Part shown: positions 3,793-17,439 of the stretch, piece after piece
Layout: each line of letters begins with the position of its first letter
How positions within the stretch are numbered: position 1 is the stretch's first letter
Assembly (NCBI RefSeq): GCF_023734095.1
Contig: NZ_AP024620.1
Coordinates: 2,476,501 to 2,540,500, forward strand
Source: Moorella sp. Hama-1
GTDB lineage: Bacteria > Bacillota > DSM-521 > Neomoorellales > Neomoorellaceae
Reading direction: 5' to 3'
Length of the DNA stretch: 64,000 nt
Notes under the pieces: generated by a model
What the model was told of the DNA's origin: nothing
Databases searched by the model: none
What the model saw: the letters and a program-made list of their open reading frames with translations, nothing else
Program-made: the position numbers and the translations under genes

Positions 3793-4221
3793 GTGGCTAG
3801 CGTGCCGGAAAAAATAATTCAACAGGAAATAGAAAAAGGGGAAAAGGAAGTCGCCGCTGGGGAAGATAAAGTAGTTGACTTCGGGTCATACTTACTCTTA
3901 GAGAAAATAAGCGACTTACAAAGCAACCTGCAAAAGCAGGTAACGGAAGTCAAAGAAAGCCTGCGCCAGGAAATGAAGCAAGAAATCGGCGGCCTCCGTC
4001 AGGAAATGAAGCAAGAAATCGGTGGTCTGCACCAGGAAATCGGTAGCCTCCGCCAGGAAATGAAGCAAGAAATTGGTAGCCTGCGCCAGGAAATGAAAGA
4101 AGAAATCAGGCACCTGGATGGAAAATTAAATAACACTATCCTGGCGGCGATAGGCGTGTTTTTCGCGGTGCTGCTTGGTTCAGCCAGTATAGTTTGGACA
4201 ATATACCATGCAATTCACTGA
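3793..4221 (+). CDS. Hendecad coiled-coil protein with C-terminal membrane anchor
   Basis: A 142-residue protein I do not recognise by family. It starts at GTG behind a GGGGGGAGGAG ribosome site. Residues about 40-115 are a long charged helix built from 11-residue units of the type LRQEMKQEIGG, repeated in the order 11-11-7-11-11, followed by one hydrophobic segment (about residues 118-138, AAIGVFFAVLLG...). The period of 11 indicates a right-handed or near-straight coiled coil. The unit is also repeated at DNA level, so copy number may vary between strains. A terminator follows at once. It looks like a membrane-tethered rod facing the cytoplasm or cell surface; function unknown. Similar small proteins (DUF1640-like) exist, but I cannot assign it. 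Confidence 0.7.
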   Translation: MASVPEKIIQQEIEKGEKEVAAGEDKVVDFGSYLLLEKISDLQSNLQKQVTEVKESLRQEMKQEIGGLRQEMKQEIGGLHQEIGSLRQEMKQEIGSLRQEMKEEIRHLDGKLNNTILAAIGVFFAVLLGSASIVWTIYHAIH

Positions 4222-4257
4222 AGGCCCGTCCCCGAAAATAGGACGAGCCTTTCTTTT
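4222..4257 (+). terminator. Intrinsic terminator of the coiled-coil gene
   Basis: AGGCCCGTCC pairs with GGACGAGCCT (one mismatch) around a 9-base loop and is followed by TTCTTTT. It begins right at the stop codon of the preceding gene. The next 148 bases, up to the convergent M20 gene, show nothing further. Confidence 0.75.
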
Positions 4258-4405
4258 AGGGGAAGCGTTTTGCAAGACGCCCATGCCGCTCGCGCGGTAC
4301 TAGCAGAAGGATGAAATGGTAAAGCGTTTTATTTTCAAGGTAGAAAAAGTGAAGTAATGAGGCGTATTTATAACCGCATCTGGAGCTGGATGTTGTAGAA
4401 GGTTT

Positions 4406-5590
4406 CTACCGCAGGGTCTCCACCGCCAGGGACGCCAGCAGGGCGGCGCCTATAGGCAGGCAGTCTTCGTTGATGTTAAACTGCGGGTGGTGCCACGGGT
4501 GGGGTTCAGCGCCAGGGATAGCCGCTCCCAGGTTAAAGTAGACCGCGGGGATTTTTTCGGCATAACGGGCGAAGTCTTCGGCTCCCAGGGAAGGGGTAGC
4601 CAGCTCCAGGACCTTATCCGGCCCCAGGACTGCCCCGGCCACCCGGCGAAAGAGGTCAGTGAGTCCCTCATCGTTAATTAGGGGCGGGTAACCCCGCAGG
4701 TAGTCCATGTCAATCGCCGTCCCGCTGGCAGCCGCCACCCCGGCCAGGACCTGGCGCATACTGTCCTCCATCTGCTTGCGGATAACATTATTCAGGGCGC
4801 GCGTGGTCCCGGTCATGGTCACCTGGCCGGCGACGATGTTTTCCTTTTCCCCACCGTGGATGGTGCCTACTGTAAGGACGGCCGGCTGCACCGGGTCCAG
4901 GCGCCGGGCGACAATAGTTTGTAAAGCCAGGACGGCCTGGGCCGCGGCGACGATGGCATCCGCCCCCAGGTGGGGTGAGGCGCCGTGGCTGGTACGACCC
5001 TTGATCTTGATTGTAAAATTGTCGGCCGAAGCCATGATGGCCCCGCTGCGGACACCTACCGTACCCACCGGCAGGTAAGCGGTGACGTGGAGGCCGAAGG
5101 CGGCCTTGACCGGGGGATCGTCCAGGACGCCGGCCTCCAGCATCAGGCGGGCGCCGCCGGGGGGCATTTCCTCGCCGGGCTGAAAGATAAAGACCACCGG
5201 TCCCGGGAGTTCCTGGCGCCGTTCGGCCAGCAGGGCCGCCGCCCCCAGGACTAAGGCCATATGGGCGTCGTGGCCGCAACCGTGCATCCGGCCCGGATAA
5301 CGGGAGGCGAACTCCTCGCCGGTATCTTCTTGGAGGGGCAGGGCGTCCATATCGGCCCGCAGGGCGACGCCGGGGCCGTCCCCCGTCCCGGCCAGAACCC
5401 CCACCACCCCTGTGCCGCCGATGCCGCTCCTAACCTGCAGCCCCAGCTCACGTAACACCCCGGCCACCAGGGCGGCTGTTTCCCTTTCCGCGAAGCTCAG
5501 TTCCGGGCACTGATGCAGACGCCGCCGCCAGGCCACAAGCTGTGGTTTGAGGACCTCTGCGGCGGCGCGCAAATCGCCGGCGCTTACCAT
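4406..5590 (-). CDS. M20 family amidohydrolase (HipO/IAA-amino-acid hydrolase type)
   Basis: A 394-residue cytoplasmic metallo-hydrolase of peptidase family M20D, which removes acyl groups from N-acyl amino acids or similar amides. Metal-binding signatures are visible: MHGCGHDAHM with the family Cys/His pair (near residue 103), FQPGEE, FGLHV and GAEDFARYAEKIP near the C-terminus; the dimerisation-domain TSHGASPH motif is present. Length is normal for the family. AGGAGGTGG precedes the ATG. It stands alone between a convergent gene and a decayed region. E. coli YgeY of the purine cluster is also M20, but this sequence is HipO-like, so a link to purine breakdown is not claimed. Confidence 0.85.
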   Translation of the reverse strand: MVSAGDLRAAAEVLKPQLVAWRRRLHQCPELSFAERETAALVAGVLRELGLQVRSGIGGTGVVGVLAGTGDGPGVALRADMDALPLQEDTGEEFASRYPGRMHGCGHDAHMALVLGAAALLAERRQELPGPVVFIFQPGEEMPPGGARLMLEAGVLDDPPVKAAFGLHVTAYLPVGTVGVRSGAIMASADNFTIKIKGRTSHGASPHLGADAIVAAAQAVLALQTIVARRLDPVQPAVLTVGTIHGGEKENIVAGQVTMTGTTRALNNVIRKQMEDSMRQVLAGVAAASGTAIDMDYLRGYPPLINDEGLTDLFRRVAGAVLGPDKVLELATPSLGAEDFARYAEKIPAVYFNLGAAIPGAEPHPWHHPQFNINEDCLPIGAALLASLAVETLR

Positions 5591-5835
5591 TGGGTAACCA
5601 CCTCCGGCTATTATTCAAACTCAAATCCTGACTAAAAAGGACAGGCTTTCCATTGAGAAGGAACTGGCCGGCCATACCGCCTTTAACCCAGTTTGGCCGG
5701 GCCATTGCCGACCTGGGTATTAATCTATCAGCCCCTGGTGCCCATGGAAGACGCCCGGCTGGAGCCGCTACCGACCTGGAAACGCCGGACCTACCACCTG
5801 GCGACGTATAGCAGGCCAGAAACCTGGCCCGAACG

Positions 5836-5967
5836 TTGAAGCAAAGCAGGGAATACCGGCGCACCTATCGTTACCGGGTCCGGAGCAAGCATACTTTTGC
5901 GGAAGCTAAAGAAAATAGTGTTCATCGACCGAGTGCGGTAAATAGGCTAGAAAAGTTTTTCCGTTGA
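5836..5967 (+). pseudogene. Possible transposase C-terminal remnant
   Basis: Of the 640-base gap between the M20 gene and the flavoenzyme, only this 43-codon stretch looks coding. It contains YRYRVRSKHTFAEAKEN, which resembles the Arg-rich xxFAEAKE segment near the C-terminus of DDE transposases of the IS1182/IS5 type. The sequence ends at a stop soon after and has no start region. Assignment is weak; the rest of the gap (5591-5835, 5968-6190) holds nothing I can support. Confidence 0.3.
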
Positions 5968-6191
5968 ACTAGCGCCCACTGGTTATCGCTCCTATACCTG
6001 GGACAAGTGGTCTTACCTTTCTATAAATTGTACTATAGCTCGGGGGAGCAGTAAATATCCAGTTGCAATCCTATGCTTGTGGAACTTTGCGCCGGCAACG
6101 TCACCTGCCCACCGGATTTCTTTCTTCTAGCCTGAGCCCCCAAACCCCCGACTTTTATCGCTTTAGTTCTCCCAGGGATCTGGTACACAAT

Positions 6192-6217
6192 AAAATACCC
6201 GGGATTATATCCCGGGT
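6192..6217 (-). terminator. Intrinsic terminator of the methyltransferase cluster
   Basis: ACCCGGGAT/ATCCCGGGT, a perfect 9-bp stem with a 3-base loop, followed on the minus strand by ATTTTATT. It lies 15 bases after the stop codon of the flavoenzyme gene. Confidence 0.8.
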
Positions 6218-6231
6218 TAGCAGGTATAATT

Positions 6232-7704
6232 TTACAATTCATGCCCAACACGCATGGCTTCAAAGACGGCCTGGGTTATTCTACGTGGACTGACGGCATC
6301 GCCGATTACATAATAATCGATACCGGAACCTTCCATTGCCTGAGCCAACGTGTCTTCAGGCCTGGATCCGATGGCCAGGACCACGCTATCAATATCGGCC
6401 AGGTCTTCTTCCCGGTCATTATAGGTAAAGGTGATGGTCCTACCTTCAATGGCTTTAAGTTTTGCCCCGGTAATTATTTTAACCTGCTGTTTCAGTCGCT
6501 CCATCAGCATGGTACCTAGCAGGGGTCCGATGTCACCCGCCACCTGCGGTAGCATTTCGATAATGGTCACTTCATGTCCCTTTTCGGCCAGGTATTCGGC
6601 CGTCTCGCAGCCCACCAGCCCGCCACCAATCACTGCCACCTTTTTACCTACCTGGACCTTCCCCCTTAAAACATCCCACGAAAGCACGACATTATCTGCC
6701 TCTACCTCCGGCACGTTCAGGGTAGCCGGGCGGGCGCCGGTAGCTATTACCACTACATCGGGTTTTTCCTGGCGGACGGCCTCCGGGGTAGCTTCCTTGT
6801 TAAGCTGGACTTTTACTTGGAGTTTGGCCAGTTGCCCCATCAAATAATCCCTGAAGGTGGCAATCTCGTCCTTCTGAGGCGGGGTAAAGGCGAGGATGAG
6901 TTGGCCGCCCAGTTCGCCGGACTTTTCCCAGAGGGTAACCTGGTGACCGCGGAGGGCTGCTACCCGGGCTACTTCCATCCCGGCCGGCCCCCCGCCGACA
7001 ACCAGGACCTTACGCGGCCGTGATGCCCGGCCCAGGGTAAATTCATGCTCATAACCCGCCCGGGCGTTAACTGTACAGCCAATGGCATGGTCCCGGAACA
7101 GTTCGTCGATGCAGGCCTGGCAACAGGCGATACAATGGCGGATTTCATCCAACCTGCCTTCTATTACCTTCTTAGGCATTTCCGGATCAGTGAGCAGCCC
7201 CCGGCCAAAAGAGATTAAATCCGCTTTACCTGCCTTCAGGATATCTTCCGCAACTTCCGGATCGTTAATGCGCCCAACGGCTATCACCGGAATCTTAACA
7301 ACCGACTTAATACCCTGGGCCAGGTCTACCAGGCAACCCCGGGGGAGATACATGGGCTGGATCACCCACGGCGCTGACGCATAAACACCAGCTGAGACGT
7401 GGAGGGCGTTAATTCCCTCTTGTTCAAGCCTCTGGGCCACAACCTTAGTTTCATCGAGGGTAAGCCCTCCCGGGACCTTTTCATCTGCACTCATCCGGTA
7501 GATTATGGGGAATTCCGGCCCAACGGCCTGTCGCACTGCCCGCACAACTTCCAGGGGGAAGCGCATCCGGTTTTCCAGCGAGCCGCCATATTCATCTGCC
7601 CGTTTATTGGAAAATGGAGAAAGGAATTCATCCAGGAGGTAACCATGGGCGCCGTGGATTTCTATGGCATCAAAGCCGGCCGTTTTGGCCCGCCGGGCAG
7701 GTAC
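6232..7704 (-). pseudogene. 2,4-dienoyl-CoA reductase-type flavoenzyme, 5' truncated
   Basis: The reading frame encodes the C-terminal two thirds of an old-yellow-enzyme/FAD-NAD(P)H fusion: end of the TIM barrel (EIHGAHGYLLDEFLSP, then RINDP and SFGRGLL), the [4Fe-4S] Cys segment (CIACCQACID..GCTVNA), the FAD Rossmann motif VVGGGPAGMEVAR and the NAD(P)H motif VIGGGLVGCETAEY. The family's first 150 or so residues are absent. Upstream the frame is closed by TGA at 7705-7707, inside the DUF1638-type gene that runs in another frame, which indicates a deletion joining two genes. The first in-frame ATG, at 7566, is deep inside the barrel, so the product is unlikely to be active. Confidence 0.75.
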
Positions 7705-8195
7705 TCACCCAAAGGGTAGGCGCTGGTACCGATCAGCATAAGGCGCCGGTAATGGCCCATGATGCTCTTCATGACGCGGCGGGCCCTTTCCTCGCCGTAG
7801 CGCTCGACGCAACGCTCGTATTCCCTCACAATATTGTTTTCGTAAACCATCCAGCCCCGGGTAAGGAAATACGTGCCTACCTTGCGTGTTAACAGCACCC
7901 GTCGCGCCACCGAACCCAAAAGCAAAGAGATACAGTCGTCCACCCGGGGGACGATGAGCCTCGCGTTAGGAGAAGCAAGACCCAAGAGGGAATTGCCGCA
8001 GGATCCGAAAGCCAGGATGATGTTTTCAACATTGGCGATCCGGCCAACCTGCTCTTGGAGCTTCTTTTTAAGCATTTCCGGATAGTTATGGAGGCCAGAC
8101 TCAATCCAGATGACCGGATATTTGATTCCCGTCTCGGCCAGGACCTTGTTGACCTCATCGCTTATGGTCTGACATGCCACGATTACGGCGCTCAT
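7662..8195 (-). CDS. DUF1638-type protein, C-terminus replaced at a deletion junction
   Basis: 177 residues with the opening of DUF1638 family proteins: a hydrophobic strand plus AVIVACQTI, then LAFGSCGNSLLGL and PRVDDCISLLLG. Such proteins usually exceed 200 residues and are commonly found beside corrinoid methyltransferase genes; their role is not established. Here the last 10 or so residues (GGPKRPALMP) are read out of frame from the flavoenzyme sequence that follows, so the true C-terminus is lost. It lies 41 bases after the methyl-THF methyltransferase gene, in the same direction, and is probably cotranscribed. Possibly non-functional. Confidence 0.65.
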   Translation of the reverse strand: MSAVIVACQTISDEVNKVLAETGIKYPVIWIESGLHNYPEMLKKKLQEQVGRIANVENIILAFGSCGNSLLGLASPNARLIVPRVDDCISLLLGSVARRVLLTRKVGTYFLTRGWMVYENNIVREYERCVERYGEERARRVMKSIMGHYRRLMLIGTSAYPLGEYLPGGPKRPALMP

Positions 8196-8236
8196 TCATT
8201 ATCAGCCTCGCTTCGAACATCATGATCCACCAACTA

Positions 8237-9037
8237 TCATACCCTGGCTTTTCGGCTACGGCAATACTGGAGGTACCTGCGGCAATACGGATCCTCGCCC
8301 AACAGGAGTTCCGTCGCCTGAATAGTTACCATGAGCTCATCATCCAGAGGATCGACTATCGCAGCGTCCATACCGGCTTCCCGCGCGAGAACTAGGAAGG
8401 TACGGTTGAGGGTACGGCGCAGGGGTAGGCCAAATGACACGTTGCTTAATCCCGAAATCACGTGTACTTCCGGGAAGCGCCCCTTGATCTCTCGTACGGC
8501 CTCGACAAACATCTTGCCGGATGTGCTGGCGGTTGCCAGGGTAGTTACCAGAGGATCGACGTAGATATACTCTTCCCGGAGCCCGTACTTGCCCGCCTCT
8601 TCTATGAGGCGTGAGGCAATGTCCACCCTTGTTTCAACGTCCTTGGGGATGCCCCTTTCGTCGATGGTTAGCGATACCACCCCAAACCTGTACTCAGCCG
8701 CCAGGGGAAAAACTTTGCCTGGCTTGCCGGGCTCGGCGGTCACCGAGTTCAGAAGGCCACCCGGTCGCCTGACCTGAGGCAGAACCGCGGCCAGAGTCTC
8801 GGGCCGGGGACTGTCCAGGCACAAAGGCGTGTCTACCACCTCCTGGACTACCTCTACCAGCCACTTCAGGTCTTCTTCCTCTCGCCCGGGAGCAGTACCC
8901 GCGTTCACATCCAGGTAATCCGCCCCAGCCTCGGCCTGACGTCTGGCCAATTCAGCAATGAAAGCGGCATCCCGCTCAAGAATAGCGGCCTGCACGGCCT
9001 TAAGGGTGCCATTTATTTTTTCCCCTACGATGATCAC
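8237..9037 (-). CDS. Methyltetrahydrofolate:corrinoid methyltransferase (MtvA/AcsE type)
   Basis: 266 residues forming a dihydropteroate-synthase-like TIM barrel. It moves a methyl group between the corrinoid protein encoded upstream and tetrahydrofolate, the link to the Wood-Ljungdahl pathway. Family signatures seen: GEKINGT at the N-terminus, DYLDVNAG (about residue 40), the SLTIDERG strand, and the pterin-binding SNVSFGLP..RTLNRTFL block (about residue 196). Length matches AcsE/MtvA. GTG start behind a purine-rich GGGAGAGGGG. It belongs with the corrinoid protein and CobW-like GTPase genes on the same strand, the second methyltransferase of a demethylation system. Confidence 0.88.
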   Translation of the reverse strand: MIIVGEKINGTLKAVQAAILERDAAFIAELARRQAEAGADYLDVNAGTAPGREEEDLKWLVEVVQEVVDTPLCLDSPRPETLAAVLPQVRRPGGLLNSVTAEPGKPGKVFPLAAEYRFGVVSLTIDERGIPKDVETRVDIASRLIEEAGKYGLREEYIYVDPLVTTLATASTSGKMFVEAVREIKGRFPEVHVISGLSNVSFGLPLRRTLNRTFLVLAREAGMDAAIVDPLDDELMVTIQATELLLGEDPYCRRYLQYCRSRKARV

Positions 9038-9140
9038 TTTGTCCCCTCTCCCTCGACTTAAAGTTATCCAAGCGCCTCAAATATCGCCGACCCCGGCTGG
9101 CCGCTCCGGTAGCCCGCTCTCGCGGGACCCGACATATTTA

Positions 9141-9512
9141 TTACCCCTGCAACCGCCTATCGCGTAAGAGCAACTCCAGGTTCTCGTCCACCACACACGC
9201 CACCCGTTCCTCCGGAATGAGGGTGAGCACTGCCGCCAAAAGGAGGTTAGGAGCGCGCAGGTTCGACCGTGCAAAACCCTCGGAGGTCTGAACATCTACC
9301 TGCCCGGGCCGCGTGCAACTTAAGGCCGCGTATGCGTCCCCCTCGGTGACCAGAGCCTTAATATGGCCGGGAACCACTCCCCGAAGGTTTACACCCTCAG
9401 CAATCCGGCGGATCAAATCTGTGAGCAGGGAGCTCAGATCCTCGCCGCGTAACGGGGTCTTGGGACAAAGCTGTACTTCGCGGGCCACGGCATGGGATGC
9501 AGTTTCAGACAT
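9141..9512 (-). CDS. Hypothetical protein of the methyltransferase cluster
   Basis: A 123-residue soluble protein I do not recognise. It starts at an ATG overlapping the CobW-like gene's stop codon (ATGTCTGA) with GAGGAG upstream, so translation is coupled. The sequence has no signal peptide, membrane segment or clustered Cys; a central block GHIKALVTEGDAYAALSCT and the conserved-looking EGFARSNLRAP suggest a compact alpha/beta fold. Its location between the GTPase and the methyltransferase implies a part in activation or assembly of the corrinoid system. A frame reaching further upstream exists, but the coupled ATG has the better ribosome site. Confidence 0.7.
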   Translation of the reverse strand: MSETASHAVAREVQLCPKTPLRGEDLSSLLTDLIRRIAEGVNLRGVVPGHIKALVTEGDAYAALSCTRPGQVDVQTSEGFARSNLRAPNLLLAAVLTLIPEERVACVVDENLELLLRDRRLQG

Positions 9513-10107
9513 AACTGCCCAACTCCTCAAAAAGGACGTGGTCCAGCCCGGTGCGGGCGCAGCCGGTGACGATCCTGGCCCGGCCGTTCAACCTCCTGAG
9601 CCGCGCAACCATGCCCTCCGGGCTTCCCTCCAGTTCGTCAACCTTATTGACCATCAACAGGTCGGCGGCCGCGATCTGAGCGAATAACAGGTCGGGGATC
9701 AGCTCCACGAGTTCCTGCCACCGGCCGGCATCCACCAAGACGACTGTCGAGACAGGCGCCACAGCCGGCCGGCCCCTGGCATAGGTCCTGAGGGTGTTTA
9801 ACACTGCGTCCGGCCTGGCCAGGCCCGTGGTCTCGATGATGAGACAGTCCGGCGCCATCTCTTCGGCGATCTGGTTCACTGCGATGACGAGATCCCCCGT
9901 CAGCTGGCAGCAGATGCAGCCGCCGAATATACCTTTAACCTTGAAACCCTGCCGGGCCAGAAACTGGTCATCAATGCTGACCTCGCCCACCTCGTTTTCT
10001 AACACTACTACCCTTTGTCGCTTAGCAAGCACCAGGAAGGCTGCCAGGTGCCTGATAAAGGTGGTCTTACCGGAGCCCAGGAAACCGCCTACCAGAATTA
10101 TCTTCAT
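9505..10107 (-). CDS. CobW/HypB-like G3E GTPase
   Basis: A 200-residue P-loop GTPase of the G3E family, whose members insert metals or cofactors into enzymes. Seen: Walker A GGFLGSGKT (residues 7-15), the metal-binding GGCICC motif (C64, C66, C67) typical of CobW/COG0523 proteins, ETTGLARP switch region and the guanine-specifying NKVD. The usual C-terminal CobW domain (100 or more residues) is missing, so this is a minimal GTPase. I chose the second ATG because GGAGG lies ten bases before it; the ATG nine bases earlier is almost on top of that site. It sits between corrinoid protein and methyltransferase genes, suggesting metal or corrinoid loading, or reductive reactivation, of this system. 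Confidence 0.85.
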   Translation of the reverse strand: MKIILVGGFLGSGKTTFIRHLAAFLVLAKRQRVVVLENEVGEVSIDDQFLARQGFKVKGIFGGCICCQLTGDLVIAVNQIAEEMAPDCLIIETTGLARPDAVLNTLRTYARGRPAVAPVSTVVLVDAGRWQELVELIPDLLFAQIAAADLLMVNKVDELEGSPEGMVARLRRLNGRARIVTGCARTGLDHVLFEELGSYV

Positions 10108-10184
10108 CCGCCTCATTCCTCCGCACTTGCTTGGAGCCGGCCCGCTTCAGGAAGCCGAGCCGCGCCGGGGACCGGGCTCGGAAT

Positions 10185-10835
10185 TTAGGTGCCGATAACC
10201 GCCGACTCACGATTGCCCTCCACTAAAAGCGTACGGCACAGGCGGGCACCCTCAATGCAGGTCTTCACCCAGTAGTCCGCGCCGGTATAGGCGCACACCT
10301 CTTCGTTCACCAGGCCGCCGATGACCACGGCCGGCCGCCGCGAAGGGAACCGCTTTTTCACCAGTTCGGCTGTGCTCTTCATGGAGTCATCGGAAATCAG
10401 GCCCGACATACACAAAATGGGAGCCCCGGTTTCACTCAGGACATCGGCGAAAACCTGAGGTGGAACATCGACCCCCAGATCTAAAACCTTGAACCCGAAC
10501 TGCCGCATGGTTACGATAGCAAGGTTCTTGCCGATGTCATGGATATCCCTCTTCACCGTACCGAAAACGATCTGGGGGAAACTGCCGCAATCCTCTTCGT
10601 GAAGAGGCCCCAGGATTCTCTGCTGGGCTTCCTTGTAGATCTCAGCTGCCATGACCAAATCGGCAAGGAAGTACTTGCCGGCATTGTATAACTCTACTAC
10701 TATTTCCAGGCCACTTCTGACGTCTTCCAGGACTACATAGGGGTCAAGCCCCTTCTCCAGGGCGTGGCTCACCAGCGCGAGCACCTTATCCTCGTTTATA
10801 CTGACCACCGCGGAAACCAGGAGCTTGCGCACCAT
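10185..10835 (-). CDS. Corrinoid protein of a methyltransferase system (MtvC/MtaC type)
   Basis: 216 residues: an N-terminal helical cap domain (about 1-85) and a B12-binding Rossmann domain. The cobalt-ligating motif RDIHDIGKN gives His99 as lower ligand; downstream SGLISDDSM and VVIGGLVNEE match the conserved SxL and GG loops. It carries the methyl group on its corrinoid between the substrate-specific methyltransferase and the methyl-THF enzyme. AGAGAGGTG precedes ATG. It lies 23 bases after the GntR regulator gene and 77 before the GTPase gene, all on one strand. Confidence 0.92.
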   Translation of the reverse strand: MVRKLLVSAVVSINEDKVLALVSHALEKGLDPYVVLEDVRSGLEIVVELYNAGKYFLADLVMAAEIYKEAQQRILGPLHEEDCGSFPQIVFGTVKRDIHDIGKNLAIVTMRQFGFKVLDLGVDVPPQVFADVLSETGAPILCMSGLISDDSMKSTAELVKKRFPSRRPAVVIGGLVNEEVCAYTGADYWVKTCIEGARLCRTLLVEGNRESAVIGT

Positions 10836-10858
10836 TTATCACCTCTCTTTATAACCGC

Positions 10859-11581
10859 CTATAGGTCATGGGAAGCCGCCTTCAGAGTCAGGCGATCTCC
10901 CCTGCAGACCATCCTGGACCAACCGACCGGCCGACCATCAAGCAGGTATATCACCTGCTCCAAGCATAACCCGGGGAACCCCGGCGATACTTCCAGGACT
11001 TCTGCTTCTTCGGCTGTCAGAGCGCAAGCAGAAATTTCCAGGATACTCTTCACCAGAAAAACCTCGCTATGACGGGCCACCAGGTCCGGGAAAGCCGCGT
11101 ACGCTATCTCTTTTTCCAGCAAGGGCATGCCTTTAATATAAATTAAGAAGCGATAATCGAGGGCCACCGGCTCCTCCCCATCAGAAAGAAGGCGCTTGAT
11201 CTTTATAACCTTGGCACCCTCCTTGACCCCGAGCCGTTCTGCCACTGCCGGGTCGGCAGGGAATATCTGGAAGCCAAGGAGTCTGACCTTAACGTTCCTG
11301 CCCTCGCCAAGCAAGTGACTGTCCGAAAAGCGCAGCACCAAGGTATCAGTGGGCGGAGCAGCTACAAAGCTCCCCTTCCCCTGGACGGTCTTAATATAAC
11401 CTCGCTGGGCCAGGAGCGCCAGACCCTGGCGGACGGTCATGATGCTGACGCCGTACTGCTCGGCGAGCTGGGTTGCTGGCGGAATCATGTCTCCCGGTTT
11501 TAGTTCGCCGTTCTCAATCTTGGACCTCAGGTCTTCGGCCAACCGGTAATAGGCCGGCAGTAACGGATAGCGCTGCTGCAA
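10859..11581 (-). CDS. GntR/HutC-family regulator with UTRA domain
   Basis: About 240 residues: an N-terminal winged helix (PGDMIPPATQLAEQYGVSIMTVRQGLALL) and a C-terminal UTRA ligand-binding domain ending in RLTLKAASHDL. I place the start at TTG 11581, ten bases after GAGAGGTG; the frame remains open further upstream but that part reads into low-quality sequence with no ribosome site. It sits inside the methyltransferase cluster between the UroD-type gene and the corrinoid gene, so it most likely senses the methylated substrate and controls the operon. No clear operator palindrome was found in the 85-base gap. Confidence 0.82.
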   Translation of the reverse strand: MQQRYPLLPAYYRLAEDLRSKIENGELKPGDMIPPATQLAEQYGVSIMTVRQGLALLAQRGYIKTVQGKGSFVAAPPTDTLVLRFSDSHLLGEGRNVKVRLLGFQIFPADPAVAERLGVKEGAKVIKIKRLLSDGEEPVALDYRFLIYIKGMPLLEKEIAYAAFPDLVARHSEVFLVKSILEISACALTAEEAEVLEVSPGFPGLCLEQVIYLLDGRPVGWSRMVCRGDRLTLKAASHDL

Positions 11582-11666
11582 TGAAATATTGCACCTCTCT
11601 TCTGCCCGTACGTTACGACCGGCCGGGGGCCACCCCGCGCGGACAGCCCCCGGCCATATACTTGGC

Positions 11667-12410
11667 TCACTTGACCGACTCAATCATCGCCTTTACGTTC
11701 TCAGGTTTGGCGTTGGCTGGAATGTCACAGCCCTGGGCCAGGATGAAGCCAGAGGGGCCGATGTTCTCGATGAGCTTGCGGCAGTAGGCATGCACCTGGT
11801 CCGGCGTGCCCAGGGACAGGAGCGCCGCGGGTACGTCTCCCATGATACACATATGTTCGCCCAAGATTTCTTTGGCCTTGAAAATATCGGTGGTGCCGTC
11901 GGGCGAGAAAACGCACTTACCTTTGGGCAGTTCGCGGAGATAGGCGAGGTCCCGCGTCCAGTTCGAGTCAAAATGCAGCACCGCAATAACCCCTTCTTCC
12001 ACCACTGCATCGACGAGCTGCTTAAAGTACGGGAATACAAACCGTTGCCACAGCCTCGGGGATAAGAACTCGCTGGCCGAGCGCCAGCCTCCCACCCATA
12101 CAGCAATGGGCTTGAGGTTGCGGCAGAACTGCCTCGCGCTTTCGATGATGTCGGGCATGGCCGCATCCATGGCCGCCTGGACCTTGTCCGGGATGCGGAA
12201 AAGATCCTTGAGGAAGGCGCTAAGCGAACGACCACCGCAGAACATCTCATATGGGATAGTAAATATCACCGAGGAAAAAGGTACGATCCCTAGCTCCTCA
12301 GCGGCCCTCACCGCCCGGGGCCAGTACTGCAGATACGGTTGAAGCTTGGATGGCAAATCATCAAGCCTGTCCTTATAGTAGTCGTTGCGGTGCCCCGTGC
12401 CCCTTGAACA
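11667..12410 (-). pseudogene. UroD-family methyltransferase (MtvB/MtaA superfamily), 5' truncated
   Basis: The frame gives the C-terminal two thirds of a uroporphyrinogen-decarboxylase-fold methyltransferase, the substrate-specific enzyme that loads methyl groups on corrinoid proteins. Visible: VLHFDSN with a candidate zinc His, the VFSPDGTTDIFKAKEIL strand, MGDVPA and the C-terminal AQGCDIPANAKPENV with the candidate zinc Cys. HFDSN rather than HxC points to the O-demethylase (MtvB-like) branch rather than MtaA. Related proteins have 340-400 residues; here a TAA at 12411-12413 closes the frame, and the only start (TTG, 12356) leaves 229. Residues upstream of that TTG still look coding, which argues for loss of the real 5' end. 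Confidence 0.7.
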
Positions 12411-12417
12411 TTAAGAG

Positions 12418-12438
12418 AGCCCCCGGATCACGGGGGCT
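12418..12438. terminator. Hairpin before the truncated methyltransferase gene
   Basis: AGCCCCC/GGGGGCT with a 7-base loop, right at the broken 5' end of the methyltransferase frame. No T-run on either strand. It may mark the recombination point. The rest of 12439-12616 contains no gene I can support. Confidence 0.45.
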
Positions 12439-12616
12439 GTGTGTTCACTTCCCACATAATTTTTTCATCACTCATCGCCCAGGCTCGAACGGCGCCTATT
12501 CGTCCCGGGACGTTGCTTCTATATACTAAATGTATCTACCCGGATATGGCTAAGACCGACGCCTTGGAGGCTTGGGTTATCGCTCCAACACCCCTTCCTG
12601 AGGGGTTACCGGTCAA

Positions 12617-12644
12617 GTAAAAAACCCGGGTTGGTTAACCCGGG
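12617..12644 (-). terminator. Intrinsic terminator of cstA
   Basis: CCCGGGTT/AACCCGGG, an 8-bp stem with a GGTT loop, followed on the minus strand by TTTTTTACTT. It lies 25 bases after the cstA stop codon. Confidence 0.85.
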
Positions 12645-12669
12645 CTGGCGTAATGGCGCGCTTTAACTT

Positions 12670-14490
12670 TTAGTAAGTGTGGGCCGAACCGGTTTCGTTT
12701 AGAGGCGCGGCCTGGCTAGTTACCCCTTCCCGCTTTTTACCGAAGAGGAGCTGGATCCAGACCCTTACCGAGTCGGCAATGATAGCAATGACCATCAGCA
12801 ACATCACGATGGAGATCACTGCCAGCAGGTAGTTATGGGTCGGGAGATAGTTGATAAAGATGTTTTCATAACCGGCGGCTATGGTAGTCACCGTTAAAAA
12901 GACCATGGGAATAAAGGTGGTCCAGGCATAACGGGCTTTGCCCATCCGGATGAGCATGGTGGTGCCGATAGCCAAGGCCATACTCCCCAGCAGCTGGTTA
13001 TTGACCCCGAAGAGGGGCCAGATGGTGGAGATGGAGCCGCCGTAGAGGAGATAACCCCAGGCCAGGGTGAAGATACCGCTAGTGATGATGATACCCGGCC
13101 ACCAGTTGTGATCCTTCAAGGGCTTGTAAACTACGCCGCCGATCTCCTGGAGCAGGTAACGGCCGACCCTGGTACCGGCGTCAATCAATGTCAGGATGAA
13201 CAGGGCTTCAAACATAATGGCGAAGTGGTACCAGTAGCCCATCAGGTGCTTTAAGCCGCCGATGCTGGAGAAGATGTGAGCCATGCCTGCCGCCAGGGAA
13301 ACGGCCCCGCCCGGCCTGCCGGCCAGGTCCTCACCCACCAGGGCGGAAAGCACAGGGAGGTCCTGGAGGTGCATACCCAGTTTGGCAAATACTTCAGGAG
13401 CGCTGTTAATGGCGAAGTAATCGGCCGGGGCCAGGACGGTAGCGGCAATCAGAGCCATGAGGGCTACAAACCCCTCCACCAGCATGGCCCCGTAACCGAT
13501 GGGCAGGATATCGGCCTCACTGGTAACCATCTTGGGTGTGGTACCGCTGGAGACCATGGCGTGGAAACCGGAGAGGGCGCCACAGGCAATGGTGATAAAC
13601 ATAAAGGGCCAGACCTTGCCGGGGATTACCGGGCCGCCGCCGGCGGCAAACCTGGTCACCGACGGCATCTGCAGGACGGGGTTGACGATAATCACCCCGG
13701 CGGCCAGCAAGAGAATGGTCCCGATCTTCATATAAGTGCTCAGGTAGTCCCGGGGTACCAGCAGGAGCCAGACCGGCAACACCGCCGCCAGGAAACCATA
13801 GGCGGCAATCATCAGGGAAAGCTGCTGCTTATTAAAGGTCAGGAGCGATGCCAGGGCCGAATGCTGGATCACCGGTCCCAGGACTACGCCGGCAACAATT
13901 AGCGCCACGCCGATAACGGTAGCCTCACCGATACGGCCGGGACGGAGCCATTTGAGGTAAGCACCGATAAAAATGGCGATGGGAATGGTCACGCCCACGG
14001 TAAAGGTGCCCCAGGGGCTCTGGAACAGGGCGTTAACTACCGAGACACTGGCACCGGCCAGGACGACGATTAAGAGAAAAAGGAGGGCTATCGAGGCCAT
14101 CCAGTAGGAAAAGGTACCCACTTCCCGATGGGCGATCTCCGCCAGGGATTGGCCGTCGTTCCTGACGGAAGCGAAAAGAATGACCATATCATGGACGGCG
14201 CCGGCGACGACGGCACCAATCAGGATCCACAGGAAGCCAGGCAGGTAACCGAACTGGGCCGCCAGTACCGGGCCGATTAAAGGGCCAGCGCCGGCGATAG
14301 CCGCAAAGTGGTGGCCGAAGACCAGCCAGCGGTTAGTCGGCACATAGTCCCGGCCGTCGTTATGGGCCAGGGCCGGGGTCCGGCGTCCCGGGTCCAGGGC
14401 CAGTACTTTCGCGGCCATGAAGGCGCCGTAGTAGCGGTAAGCCAGGACAAACACCAGGGCAGTTACAATCACCAGGGGTAATGCTTTCAT
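12670..14490 (-). CDS. cstA: CstA-family transporter (carbon starvation protein)
   Basis: A 606-residue polytopic membrane protein with the CstA family's hallmarks: an N-terminal helix, the NDGRDYVPTNRWLVFGHHFAAI segment (split here: NDGRDYVPTN, VFGHHFAAIAG), GPLIGPVLAAQFGYLPG, and CGALSGFHAMVSSGTTPKM in the central part. About 16 hydrophobic helices can be counted. Members import peptides or pyruvate with protons. The gene is followed on the other side by a LytS/LytTR pair on the same strand, the same partnership as in E. coli BtsS/BtsR with BtsT, which supports pyruvate or a related carboxylate as substrate and inducer. Length is a little short of the E. coli proteins but normal for Firmicutes. 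Confidence 0.9.
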   Translation of the reverse strand: MKALPLVIVTALVFVLAYRYYGAFMAAKVLALDPGRRTPALAHNDGRDYVPTNRWLVFGHHFAAIAGAGPLIGPVLAAQFGYLPGFLWILIGAVVAGAVHDMVILFASVRNDGQSLAEIAHREVGTFSYWMASIALLFLLIVVLAGASVSVVNALFQSPWGTFTVGVTIPIAIFIGAYLKWLRPGRIGEATVIGVALIVAGVVLGPVIQHSALASLLTFNKQQLSLMIAAYGFLAAVLPVWLLLVPRDYLSTYMKIGTILLLAAGVIIVNPVLQMPSVTRFAAGGGPVIPGKVWPFMFITIACGALSGFHAMVSSGTTPKMVTSEADILPIGYGAMLVEGFVALMALIAATVLAPADYFAINSAPEVFAKLGMHLQDLPVLSALVGEDLAGRPGGAVSLAAGMAHIFSSIGGLKHLMGYWYHFAIMFEALFILTLIDAGTRVGRYLLQEIGGVVYKPLKDHNWWPGIIITSGIFTLAWGYLLYGGSISTIWPLFGVNNQLLGSMALAIGTTMLIRMGKARYAWTTFIPMVFLTVTTIAAGYENIFINYLPTHNYLLAVISIVMLLMVIAIIADSVRVWIQLLFGKKREGVTSQAAPLNETGSAHTY

Positions 14491-14515
14491 AGCGCCCGTC
14501 TCTCCTTTACAATTT

Positions 14516-14543
14516 AAAACCGGCCGGTTTTGCTTTTATTATA
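14516..14543 (-). promoter_or_regulatory. cstA promoter region with palindromic operator
   Basis: A -10 box TATAAT (minus strand, 14543-14538) is followed by the perfect 16-bp palindrome AAAACCGGCCGGTTTT (14516-14531), between the -10 and the ribosome site of cstA. LytTR regulators usually bind direct repeats, so a different repressor may use this site. No clear -35 is visible. Confidence 0.5.
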
Positions 14544-14620
14544 AAACTGCCTTATAAAACAAGTAACAATAATTGCATGAACAGAATAAAATGGCGGATG
14601 AACGGAAATAGAGGCCATCA

Positions 14621-14646
14621 AAAATACCCCCTCTGATAGGGGGTAT
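14621..14646 (-). terminator. Intrinsic terminator downstream of the lytTR gene
   Basis: ATACCCCCT/AGGGGGTAT, a 9-bp stem with a 5-base loop and TTTT after it on the minus strand. It lies beyond repeat copy 2, so that repeat is probably transcribed as the 3' end of the two-component operon. Confidence 0.8.
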
Positions 14647-14695
14647 CCGTGGGGGCTAACTCTCCCGCTACGATGCCTGAAAGTGTAGGCTGGCT

Positions 14696-14918
14696 GGGGG
14701 GCTGGAGGTACAACTCCGGGCTCCGGTGGTTCTCGGCTAGCAAACTTGGCGCTCAGCCTGACTTTGTCTCTTTGAATAATCGCAACGGGGAGCGGAACTC
14801 TTAGTTCCTCAACTTACGCTACGATCCCCATCCCGTTCACCGCCGCTTCGCCGCGGCTTCGCGCAAGTATCTGACACCTCGAACCAAGTCGCCCTCCGCC
14901 TGTACCCGCCAGCCCCCC
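14696..14918 (+). repeat. Structured intergenic repeat, copy 2
   Basis: Same orientation as copy 1. The core is nearly identical over GGTTCTCGG..AGCAAACTTGGCGCTCAGCC and over AACTTACG.TACGATCCCCATCCCGTTCACCGCC (interrupted here). It is shorter by about 18 bases after the left inner helix, and its left terminal repeat is degenerate, while the right end (CCTGTACCCGCCAGCC) is intact. The inner helix partner is damaged. It occupies the gap between the lytTR gene and its terminator. Confidence 0.8.
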
Positions 14919-14954
14919 AGGTAACCAATATTCGGAGAAGCTGCACCAGGCAGG

Positions 14955-15725
14955 TTAGCCTAGCCCCAAAAGTCTTTTCAACTCCTTCACCTGGCCTTTG
15001 CCGACGGGGATTTGGGTTTGCCGGCGGTCGCCCATGACCAACCAGTAGGTCCCCTTAAACCAGGGCAACACTCCTGCCACGCGCTTCAGGTTGACCAGGT
15101 AGCTCTTGTGGACCCGGAAAAAGCCCTCCCGGTTTAAACGTTCCTCCAGTTCGGCCATGGTGCCGCCAAAGGTGTAATAATCGCCGGCCGTAAAGACCTC
15201 CACCGCGCCGTGCCTGGCCCGGCCGTAAATAATCTCGCCGTAGTCCAGGAGTTTGATTTCCCCGTTTTTCTCCACCGGCAGTTTTTTAACCTCCTGCCGG
15301 TGGTTACCTTCCAGTAACCGCGCCACCCGGGCCACGGCCTCCTGCCAGTCTTCTTCCCTCTCTTTGAGGTTTTTAATACGGGCGATGGTCCTTGCCAGGC
15401 GCTCCGCCTCAAAGGGTTTCAACAGGTAATCTACAGCCCCCAGTTCAAAGGCGTCAACGGCGTATTCGTTGTAGGCGGTGGCGAAGACAACCAGAGGCGG
15501 CCGGGGGGAGGCGAGCATCCGCCGGGCGGCATCGTAACCGGACATACCCCGCATCTCGATATCCAGAAAGACTACGTCCGGGTGCAACCGCTCCACCAGT
15601 AGCAGGGCTCCCTCAGCGTCCTCGGCTTCGCCGACGACCCGGCACTCCCCGCGGGCGGAGAGGAGGTATTTCAACTCATCCCGAGCCAGGGGTTCGTCGT
15701 CAACCACAACAGCGGTAAAGCTCAT
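14955..15725 (-). CDS. LytTR-family response regulator
   Basis: 256 residues: receiver domain (acidic pair VVDDEP, phospho-acceptor in DVVFLDIEM, Lys in LLKPF) and a C-terminal LytTR DNA-binding domain (HKSYLVNLKRV, QIPVGKGQVKELK). The start is the ATG with GGAGAAAG upstream, nine codons inside the longest frame. It overlaps the end of the kinase gene by 26 bases, so the two are translationally coupled. Expected to activate cstA next to it, by analogy with BtsR/YehT systems. Confidence 0.88.
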   Translation of the reverse strand: MSFTAVVVDDEPLARDELKYLLSARGECRVVGEAEDAEGALLLVERLHPDVVFLDIEMRGMSGYDAARRMLASPRPPLVVFATAYNEYAVDAFELGAVDYLLKPFEAERLARTIARIKNLKEREEDWQEAVARVARLLEGNHRQEVKKLPVEKNGEIKLLDYGEIIYGRARHGAVEVFTAGDYYTFGGTMAELEERLNREGFFRVHKSYLVNLKRVAGVLPWFKGTYWLVMGDRRQTQIPVGKGQVKELKRLLGLG

Positions 15726-17439
15726 CTTTCTCCTGCACCCCCCGGTGTCCAACTGCCTTTACCTCTTTGGGAAAACGCAGGATCACCTCAGTGCCCCGGT
15801 CAGGCGCGCTATTGACCTGCACCGCATATTCCGGTCCGTAGAGGGCCTTCAGGCGTTCGTTGACAATGGCCAGACCCAGGCCATGCCCGTGACCGTAACC
15901 GGGGAGGAGAATTTTCTGGATTTCTGCCGGGGCGATGCCCACGCCGTCATCCGCCACCGTGACTACGACTTCCCTTCCCCGGTCGCAGGCGGTCAAGATT
16001 AACCTGCCCCCACGGGGCCGGGGCTGCAGCCCGTGTTTAATGGCGTTTTCTACTACCGGCTGCAGGGTGAAGGCCGGCACCGAGCAACCCAGGGTGGCGG
16101 GCTCCACCCGGCGGATAACCTCCAGCTTGTTACCGAAACGCGTTTCCTCTATGGCTAGATAGGCATCAACATGGGCCAGCTCTTCCTCCAGGGGGATGGG
16201 GTTATCGTCCCTCTTTAAACTATAGCGGAAGAAGCTGGCCAGCTTGATCAGGAGTTCCCGGGCCTTTTCCGGCCGGGTACGAATTAGGGAAGTAATGGTA
16301 TTCAGGGCGTTAAAAAGAAAATGGGGATGCACCTGGGCCTGGAGGGCCTTGAGTTCCGCCTGGGAGCGCAACCGGGCCTGGTACTCCACCTCGGCCAGCT
16401 CCAGTTGAGTGGAAAAAAGGTGGGCCAGACCCCGGGCCAGTTCCAGGTCCACCGGCGTAATACTATTCTCCCGGTCGCGGTAGAGTTTCAGGGCACCGAC
16501 GGTCGCCTCCCGCCGTCGCAGCGGTACCACCACCGCCGAGGCCAGGCGGCAATTCCGGTCCCGGCAGCCGATCTCCCCCCTAGTTTGGGCCAACTGCAAC
16601 TCCCCCCTGGCAATGGCCTGCAGGGTGGCGCTGGTCAAAATGGGGTTGCCCGGGTGATGGTGGTCGCTGCCCATGCCTACATGGGCCAGGATTTCCTGCC
16701 TGTCGGTAAAGGATACGGCTGCCACTTTAATGGAATTAAAGATAATCCCGGCCGCTGCTTCCGCCGATTCCCGGTTCAAGCCGTGGCGCAAAAAGGGCAG
16801 GGTCTGGTTGGCAATATCCAGGGCCCGCTGGGCCTGGCAGGCGGCGATATGATCCTGCTGCTCGGCGGCGGTTTTGACAATCAGCATGAAGATGGCCACG
16901 CCAAGGGAGTTGACGATAATCATGGGCGGGCCGATAATCGTCACCAGGGCCAGGGCCTCGCTGAAGGGCCGGGCCGTCAGGAGGATGATGGCCATCTGCA
17001 GCGTTTCCCCCGCCAGACCGGCGGCCAGGGCCACTGACCAGGGCACCGGGGAGCGGCGGTAGAACCGCTGGATCAGGCCGCCCAGGCTGCCCTCGGCCAC
17101 CGCCGCCAGGCCACAGGAGAAGGCCGTAAAACCGCCGATAAAATAGCGGTGGACGCCGGCAATAAGGCCGGCCCCAGCCCCCACCAGGGGGCCGCCCAGT
17201 AAACCGGCCACCATAACACCCACCACCCGGGAGTTGGCCAGGGCACCGTTGATAGGGATACCGGCGTAGGTGCCCACGATACCCATGCCCCCCAGGACCA
17301 GGATCAACAGCACCCTGTCCGTGGTCGTCAGCTGGCGGGACAAAATACGACCCAGGGCCGGGGTCCGGGACAGGATAAAAGCCGCGGTGGCTACCATGCT
17401 CAATCTTTCGGCCAGATTCAGGGCCATGGACCAGGTCAT
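15700..17439 (-). CDS. LytS/BtsS-type sensor histidine kinase
   Basis: 579 residues. Five or six hydrophobic helices at the N-terminus form a 5TMR-LYT sensor (GGPLVGAGAGLIAGVHRYFIGGFTA is typical; only in part quoted: AGLIAGVHRYFIGG). A GAF domain follows (about 220-340), then the His_kinase domain with HPHFLFNALNTI and an HATPase domain with NAIKHG, DDGVG and GHGLGLA. All kinase boxes are present. It probably senses extracellular pyruvate or another nutrient and works with the LytTR regulator on the CstA transporter. Confidence 0.88.
   Translation of the reverse strand: MTWSMALNLAERLSMVATAAFILSRTPALGRILSRQLTTTDRVLLILVLGGMGIVGTYAGIPINGALANSRVVGVMVAGLLGGPLVGAGAGLIAGVHRYFIGGFTAFSCGLAAVAEGSLGGLIQRFYRRSPVPWSVALAAGLAGETLQMAIILLTARPFSEALALVTIIGPPMIIVNSLGVAIFMLIVKTAAEQQDHIAACQAQRALDIANQTLPFLRHGLNRESAEAAAGIIFNSIKVAAVSFTDRQEILAHVGMGSDHHHPGNPILTSATLQAIARGELQLAQTRGEIGCRDRNCRLASAVVVPLRRREATVGALKLYRDRENSITPVDLELARGLAHLFSTQLELAEVEYQARLRSQAELKALQAQVHPHFLFNALNTITSLIRTRPEKARELLIKLASFFRYSLKRDDNPIPLEEELAHVDAYLAIEETRFGNKLEVIRRVEPATLGCSVPAFTLQPVVENAIKHGLQPRPRGGRLILTACDRGREVVVTVADDGVGIAPAEIQKILLPGYGHGHGLGLAIVNERLKALYGPEYAVQVNSAPDRGTEVILRFPKEVKAVGHRGVQEKDELYRCCG

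Follow-up and report, generated by a model that had tools for sequence, protein, structure and literature searches.

A short COG0523/G3E GTPase and a small partner protein, likely a detached CobW C-terminal domain, are encoded side by side in the window (the whole 64,000-nucleotide stretch of Moorella DNA analysed here) and recur as an adjacent pair in relatives, mostly close to genes for corrinoid-dependent methyl transfer. This recurrence suggests that the pair is a dedicated helper that loads a metal, probably zinc, or a cofactor into B12-dependent methyl-transfer enzymes. COG0523 GTPases are widespread and, to our knowledge, few have a known client. If the suggestion is true, one branch of a large GTPase family with mostly unknown targets would gain a defined client. 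A split clade tied to one enzyme type would offer a compact system, amenable to purification and with a clear candidate client, in which the metalation target of a COG0523 protein could be tested directly. It would also give access to the poorly understood CobW C-terminal domain: if this can work as a protein of its own, one could measure in isolation which partner it chooses and how it binds metal.

The window cluster is transcribed from the reverse strand (positions 6232-12386) in the order URO-D-type methyltransferase fragment, GntR/UTRA regulator, corrinoid protein, GTPase, partner, methyl-THF:corrinoid methyltransferase (MT II) and DUF1638 fragment (table 1), with a 5'-truncated NADH:flavin oxidoreductase gene after them. 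The original prediction had listed a corrinoid protein, a G3E GTPase with CxCC, a 123-residue protein and a methyl-THF methyltransferase at 8237-10835; open reading frames and family matches show all four to be real, while the regulator and the two fragments had been missed. The cluster had also been described as tightly packed and partly overlapping. This holds for the GTPase and its partner, whose genes overlap by 8 nt at the ATG start of the partner, but not for the gaps of 77 nt between corrinoid protein and GTPase and of about 100 nt between partner and MT II. The corrinoid protein is 64% identical to COR2 of locus L021 and its motif reads DIHDIG; the regulator is 61% identical to that of the same locus.

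Table 1. Features of the corrinoid methyltransferase cluster in the window.
Feature	Position	Strand	Family match or remark
Short COG0523/G3E GTPase, 200 aa, CxCC	9505..10107	-	PF02492 141 bits against a cut-off of 20.7
Partner protein, 123 aa, GHIK at residues 49-52	9141..9512	-	family alignments A3/A5
Corrinoid protein, B12-binding cap and B12-binding domains, DxHxxG	10185..10835	-	PF02607, PF02310
Methyl-THF:corrinoid methyltransferase (MT II), PRK07535-type, GTG start	8237..9037	-	NF005719 334 bits, cut-off 259
GntR/UTRA regulator	10859..11683	-	PF00392, PF07702; relatives align from ~11581
URO-D-type methyltransferase fragment	11667..12386	-	relative in L021
DUF1638 fragment	7662..8195	-	PF07796 128.6 bits; match ends at 7704

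The window GTPase carries the motifs GGFLGSGKTT (Walker A), GGCICC and NKVD, and Walker A, GCxCC, E-N-E and KxD are invariant in an alignment of 11 GTPase relatives (A4). Its best NCBIfam relatives are CobW-like proteins (93.6 bits) and YjiA (90.8 bits), with HypB at 27.8 bits, and its GTPase domain is 35-37% identical to ZigA and others. As originally predicted, the chain lacks a C-terminal domain: it stops after the GTPase domain, at 200 aa, without the same-chain CobW_C that is usual, though not universal, in COG0523. YjiA, CobW and ZigA differ in having this domain in the same chain, and they are generally not tied to methyltransferases.

We surveyed about 398 genomes of one phylum with profiles that were enlarged stepwise. 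Queried with the single window partner sequence, the search returned only weak matches inside long unrelated genes (L007-L009); successive profile searches found the partner in 11, then 21, then 24 genomes. All searches together gave 32 loci with an adjacent GTPase-partner pair, a recurrence that places the adjacency far beyond chance, and none of them showed GTPase and partner joined as a single chain. A corrinoid-protein gene lies within 8 kb of the pair in 26 of the 32 loci, the remaining six being L010, L104, L105, L108, L111 and L115. The predicted dedication of the pair to corrinoid methyl transfer thus stands for most loci, and a check for pairs lying mostly far from corrinoid genes did not overturn it.

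The first pair found in a relative, at MAG locus L010 (69% identity for the GTPase, 55% for the partner), is surrounded by insertion sequences and restriction genes. Eight relatives (L021-L028) have in common the gene order MT II, corrinoid 1, URO-D, GntR, corrinoid 2, DUF1638, GTPase and partner, some of them without certain parts or cut by contig ends. More distant relatives show other arrangements, with MtmB homologues (L093, L109) or RACo (L101, L102, L106, L107). The two MtmB homologues (L093 4764-6167 and L109 777-2171) are open over their full length without an in-frame amber codon, and adjoin the GTPase-partner pair and MtaA/CmuA-like genes. At L106 (7441-8577) the partner carries DUF2284 as a C-terminal fusion, which annotation describes as predicted to bind metal. 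At L101 (4813-5511) and L102 (3390-4079) a further gene adjoins the corrinoid protein, and the L101 copy weakly matches PF02965, the B12 activation domain of methionine synthase (E 0.0065). The pair at L104 (G130:C1:1753001-1769000) has no corrinoid genes around it and lies within 8 kb of CobT (PF02277) and apparent FolE, FolP and FolB genes. GTP cyclohydrolase I is a zinc enzyme.

The partner accompanies only one kind of COG0523 protein. More than 150 COG0523 proteins were matched by the GTPase profile, and all 31 complete short GTPases have the partner directly downstream (29 found by profile A5, and L115 and L116 by local inspection). It also follows a short GTPase truncated at a contig start (G136); another two short matches, which run into contig ends, were left out of the count. 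Among full-length COG0523 proteins (about 290-413 aa) of the same 398 genomes, none is followed by the partner. When 31 short GTPase domains were placed in one tree with 31 from full-length proteins, the latter a sample of nearest matches and references, the short GTPases formed a single clade with 100/100 support. CobW_C (PF07683) was present in seven of eight full-length proteins tested, most of which came from the vicinity of corrinoid, URO-D or RACo genes, and full-length COG0523 genes stand beside RACo at L118, L123, L124, L127 and L130-L132. Since complete short GTPases always come with the partner and full-length proteins in equivalent clusters mostly carry CobW_C, one genomic niche is held in two forms, by a one-piece COG0523 protein or by a short GTPase and its partner.

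The partner has no match in Pfam or NCBIfam and is therefore unannotated in the genomes that carry it; the Pfam CobW_C profile (PF07683) matched none of 11 family members, nor the L115 and L116 proteins. When the partner family was compared with a combined CobW_C alignment by hhalign, it scored 23.5 (P 7.8e-4, probability only 25%), with partner 13-116 collinear with CobW_C 13-103. None of 200 column-shuffled profiles reached this score (mean 9.7, sd 1.8, maximum 14.9), and segments of other cluster families had scored at most 15.6 against CobW_C in an earlier comparison. The family motif GH(I/L/V)K is invariant, and its Lys (in GHIK) lies close to that of the CobW_C RxKG motif. His-rich tails are frequent among partner proteins. 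A His-rich stretch precedes the domain in split partners (L115, L111, L108, L096) and also in one-piece COG0523 proteins (L133, L134, L123). The full-length protein at L133 (7096-8277) has a repeat-like His/Asp/Glu/Cys linker of about 100 residues (HHHHDHDEHCDCGHE) before its C-terminal domain.

Structure prediction points in the same direction. The model of the L010 partner homologue, built from two sequences (pLDDT 86), has the same fold and element order as the YjiA C-terminal domain, and a Foldseek search of 350,542 PDB chains gave YjiA as the sole match with E <0.001 (8.6e-4, probability 1.00). By VIA-align, model residues 1-117 fall on YjiA 218-318 with Z 6.9 and an rmsd of 4.7, a Z below 8 that is not proof of kinship. 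The small archaeal protein 3ueb fits the model better (VIA Z 9.6), so the modelled fold, a common alpha/beta arrangement, is not unique. Hsp90 rows from Foldseek, and START-domain and 3ueb rows from VIA, were read as common-fold matches. The model of the window partner itself, for which YjiA came top by Foldseek and not by VIA, was set aside as too poor (pLDDT 59). Searching PDB sequences with the profile of the partner family produced chance matches only.

Alternatively, the partner could be a metal-binding adaptor that has no relation to the CobW C-terminal domain and merely accompanies the short GTPase, much as HypA partners HypB. The HypA/HypB and UreE/UreG nickel chaperones likewise combine a short G3E GTPase with a small separate protein, some partner members start with MHE or MHQ as HypA does, and both the missing Pfam match and the common fold would fit. 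We nevertheless consider such an adaptor quite unlikely. A profile comparison with three HypA/HybF sequences gave no match (P 0.55, against 7.8e-4 for CobW_C), on which a HypA-like partner was rejected. The single significant Foldseek match falls within the C-terminal domain of YjiA, and the partner is strictly exclusive with one-piece COG0523 proteins. The GTPase differs too, with HypB reaching only the 27.8 bits given above, and the hydrogenase and urease genes of the nickel systems are absent from the window cluster. Because the partner is exclusive to short GTPases, carries GHxK and His-rich tails and matches YjiA, we favour a detached CobW C-terminal domain, a likely assignment that stands outside Pfam's own CobW_C membership and draws on profile comparison, predicted structure and His-rich layout together. 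The original proposal that the partner replaces the missing domain is thus very probably correct, given the exclusive distribution, the fold match to YjiA 218-318 and the remote profile similarity to CobW_C.

Which protein the pair might serve is indicated by its neighbours. Among the matches listed, corrinoid clusters with the pair contained a URO-D gene in 9/9 cases, compared with 19/40 without the pair (Fisher one-sided p 0.0034); the count comes from seven related single-contig genomes of one phylum and includes one G197 corrinoid position added from local annotation (L097). URO-D proteins of the clusters keep His-x-Asp or His-x-Cys, and in most close relatives GCxxP, at what are presumably the places of the MtaA/MtbA zinc ligands, but several have Asp where MtaA-type proteins have Cys, which counts against a zinc reading. 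A nitrile hydratase or other known metal client was not seen in window positions 4000-16000 or in the relatives' neighbourhoods, where many neighbours were read by eye. Haas et al. (2009, PMC2770081) treat MtaA as a zinc enzyme, point out the zinc dependence of mtaA/mtaB and regard COG0523 proteins as metallochaperones for zinc or cobalt among others; CobW is linked with cobalt in the accessible part of another paper (PMC10206600).

GTP-gated zinc delivery is the likeliest function because COG0523 proteins are regarded as metallochaperones, URO-D genes co-occur with the pair in 9/9 clusters and the URO-D motifs are kept. On this view, a COG0523 (CobW/YjiA-type) metallochaperone would be divided between GTPase and partner. 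Its short GTPase half would bind GTP and, at the CxCC site, a metal; the partner would provide the C-terminal half with GH(I/L/V)K and a His-rich stretch where one-piece COG0523 proteins have a His-rich linker. In a GTP-gated step, the pair would most likely pass a metal, probably Zn2+, on to the cluster's own URO-D-type methyltransferase (MtaA/CmuA-like), and this enzyme would then move methyl groups to the corrinoid protein. We infer complex formation, the metal and the client protein from the computed pairing, exclusivity, clade, fold match and context. A split COG0523 metallochaperone that probably delivers Zn2+ to the URO-D-type methyltransferase is our best explanation, and we give it about an even chance of being right; that such a two-piece protein serves specifically to metalate corrinoid methyltransferases of the URO-D type falls slightly short of even.

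The main rival is a corrinoid chaperone resembling MeaB, the methylmalonyl-CoA mutase chaperone, in which the pair gates the loading, release or protection of corrinoid on the corrinoid protein and delivers no metal. MeaB is likewise a G3E GTPase (Haas et al. 2009, PMC2770081) and serves a B12 enzyme, and such a role would suit the corrinoid-protein genes near 26/32 pairs. It would also suit DUF1638, which shares the pair's cluster in many relatives and which Phaeobacter requires, along with a RamA-like protein, to make methionine by the B12-dependent route (PMC5764234). The GTPase, however, is a COG0523 protein with CxCC from a different G3E branch, and the MeaB profile PF03308 has no significant match to it (E 0.18, 11.2 bits, under the cut-off of 23.1). 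Within 8 kb of its pair, L111 has a URO-D gene and lacks any for a corrinoid protein; the pair is missing from many corrinoid clusters of the same genomes, and the His-rich tails suggest metal. Overall, we regard a corrinoid chaperone as unlikely, though it deserves consideration beside metal delivery.

In a further rival reading the pair would take the place of RACo/RamA in restoring Co(I); the original prediction had set the G3E GTPase against the RACo/RamA-type reactivators of known systems. Consistent with replacement, RACo was seen neither in the window cluster nor beside the pair in L021-L028, and the single-contig genome G089 has only one RACo gene, some 310 kb from its cluster. The RACo/RamA reductive activases are also accessory factors of corrinoid methyltransferase clusters, but they are ATP-dependent iron-sulfur proteins, and a redox cofactor site is evident in neither the GTPase nor the partner. 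The GTPase does not replace RACo, because RACo-type genes lie inside several of the pair's own clusters (L101, L102, L106, L107). They also occur beside the full-length COG0523 proteins listed above, and RACo is encoded somewhere in 10/11 pair genomes. Replacement was rejected on the shared clusters, and a reductive role for the pair is very improbable.

A G3E GTPase beside corrinoid methyltransferases had been taken for an unknown arrangement, which the literature contradicts. COG0523 subfamily 13 co-locates with the corrinoid methyltransferase genes mtaA, mtaB, mtaC and ramM in methanogens, with similar clustering in Clostridium botulinum and Desulfitobacterium hafniense, where a MeTr homologue stands beside a COG0523 gene (Haas et al. 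2009, PMC2770081). The co-location at 26/32 pair loci is alike; the difference is that the available text of that paper mentions neither splitting of the GTPase nor a C-terminal domain on its own nor the partner protein. The dichloromethane mec cassette was discarded as a precedent, its gene list holding no GTPase (PMC9768040), and open-access full texts yielded no account of COG0523 proteins split in this way within corrinoid clusters. The link between COG0523 and corrinoid enzymes has thus been known since 2009; what appears to be new is the division into two proteins, together with the unannotated family of the partner.

In the window itself the cluster is rearranged and partly decayed, as is evident from its truncated URO-D and DUF1638 genes. 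The URO-D fragment is 82% identical to residues 129-367 of its 368-aa relative in L021 and retains HFD and GCDIP, but it starts at residue 129 and misses the N-terminal 128 residues. The DUF1638 fragment aligns to residues 6-169 of 241, its C-terminal third being absent, and corrinoid 1, the first of the two corrinoid genes in the relatives' order, is absent altogether. With these two genes truncated and one corrinoid gene missing, the pair system of the window genome may therefore no longer function as in relatives. Whatever the family does elsewhere, the window cluster could even be a decaying remnant without present function. The losses just described and the absence of the partner from the other genomes of the genus (0/10) point that way; on the other side, the five central genes, for GTPase, partner, corrinoid protein, MT II and regulator, show no such damage and keep the conserved motifs. 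We consider a remnant a serious possibility, if somewhat less than probable.

Next to the truncated DUF1638 gene, and abutting it as at a recombination or deletion junction, lies the 5'-truncated NADH:flavin oxidoreductase/FAD gene (6232-7700, reverse strand), whose FMN domain has lost roughly its first 200 residues. Elsewhere in the window genome, one RACo-type gene (G000:C1:1178910-1179470 and 1181350-1181544) is split at model position 197-198 by a stretch of about 1.9 kb, and another (2772119-2772877) contains an in-frame TGA.
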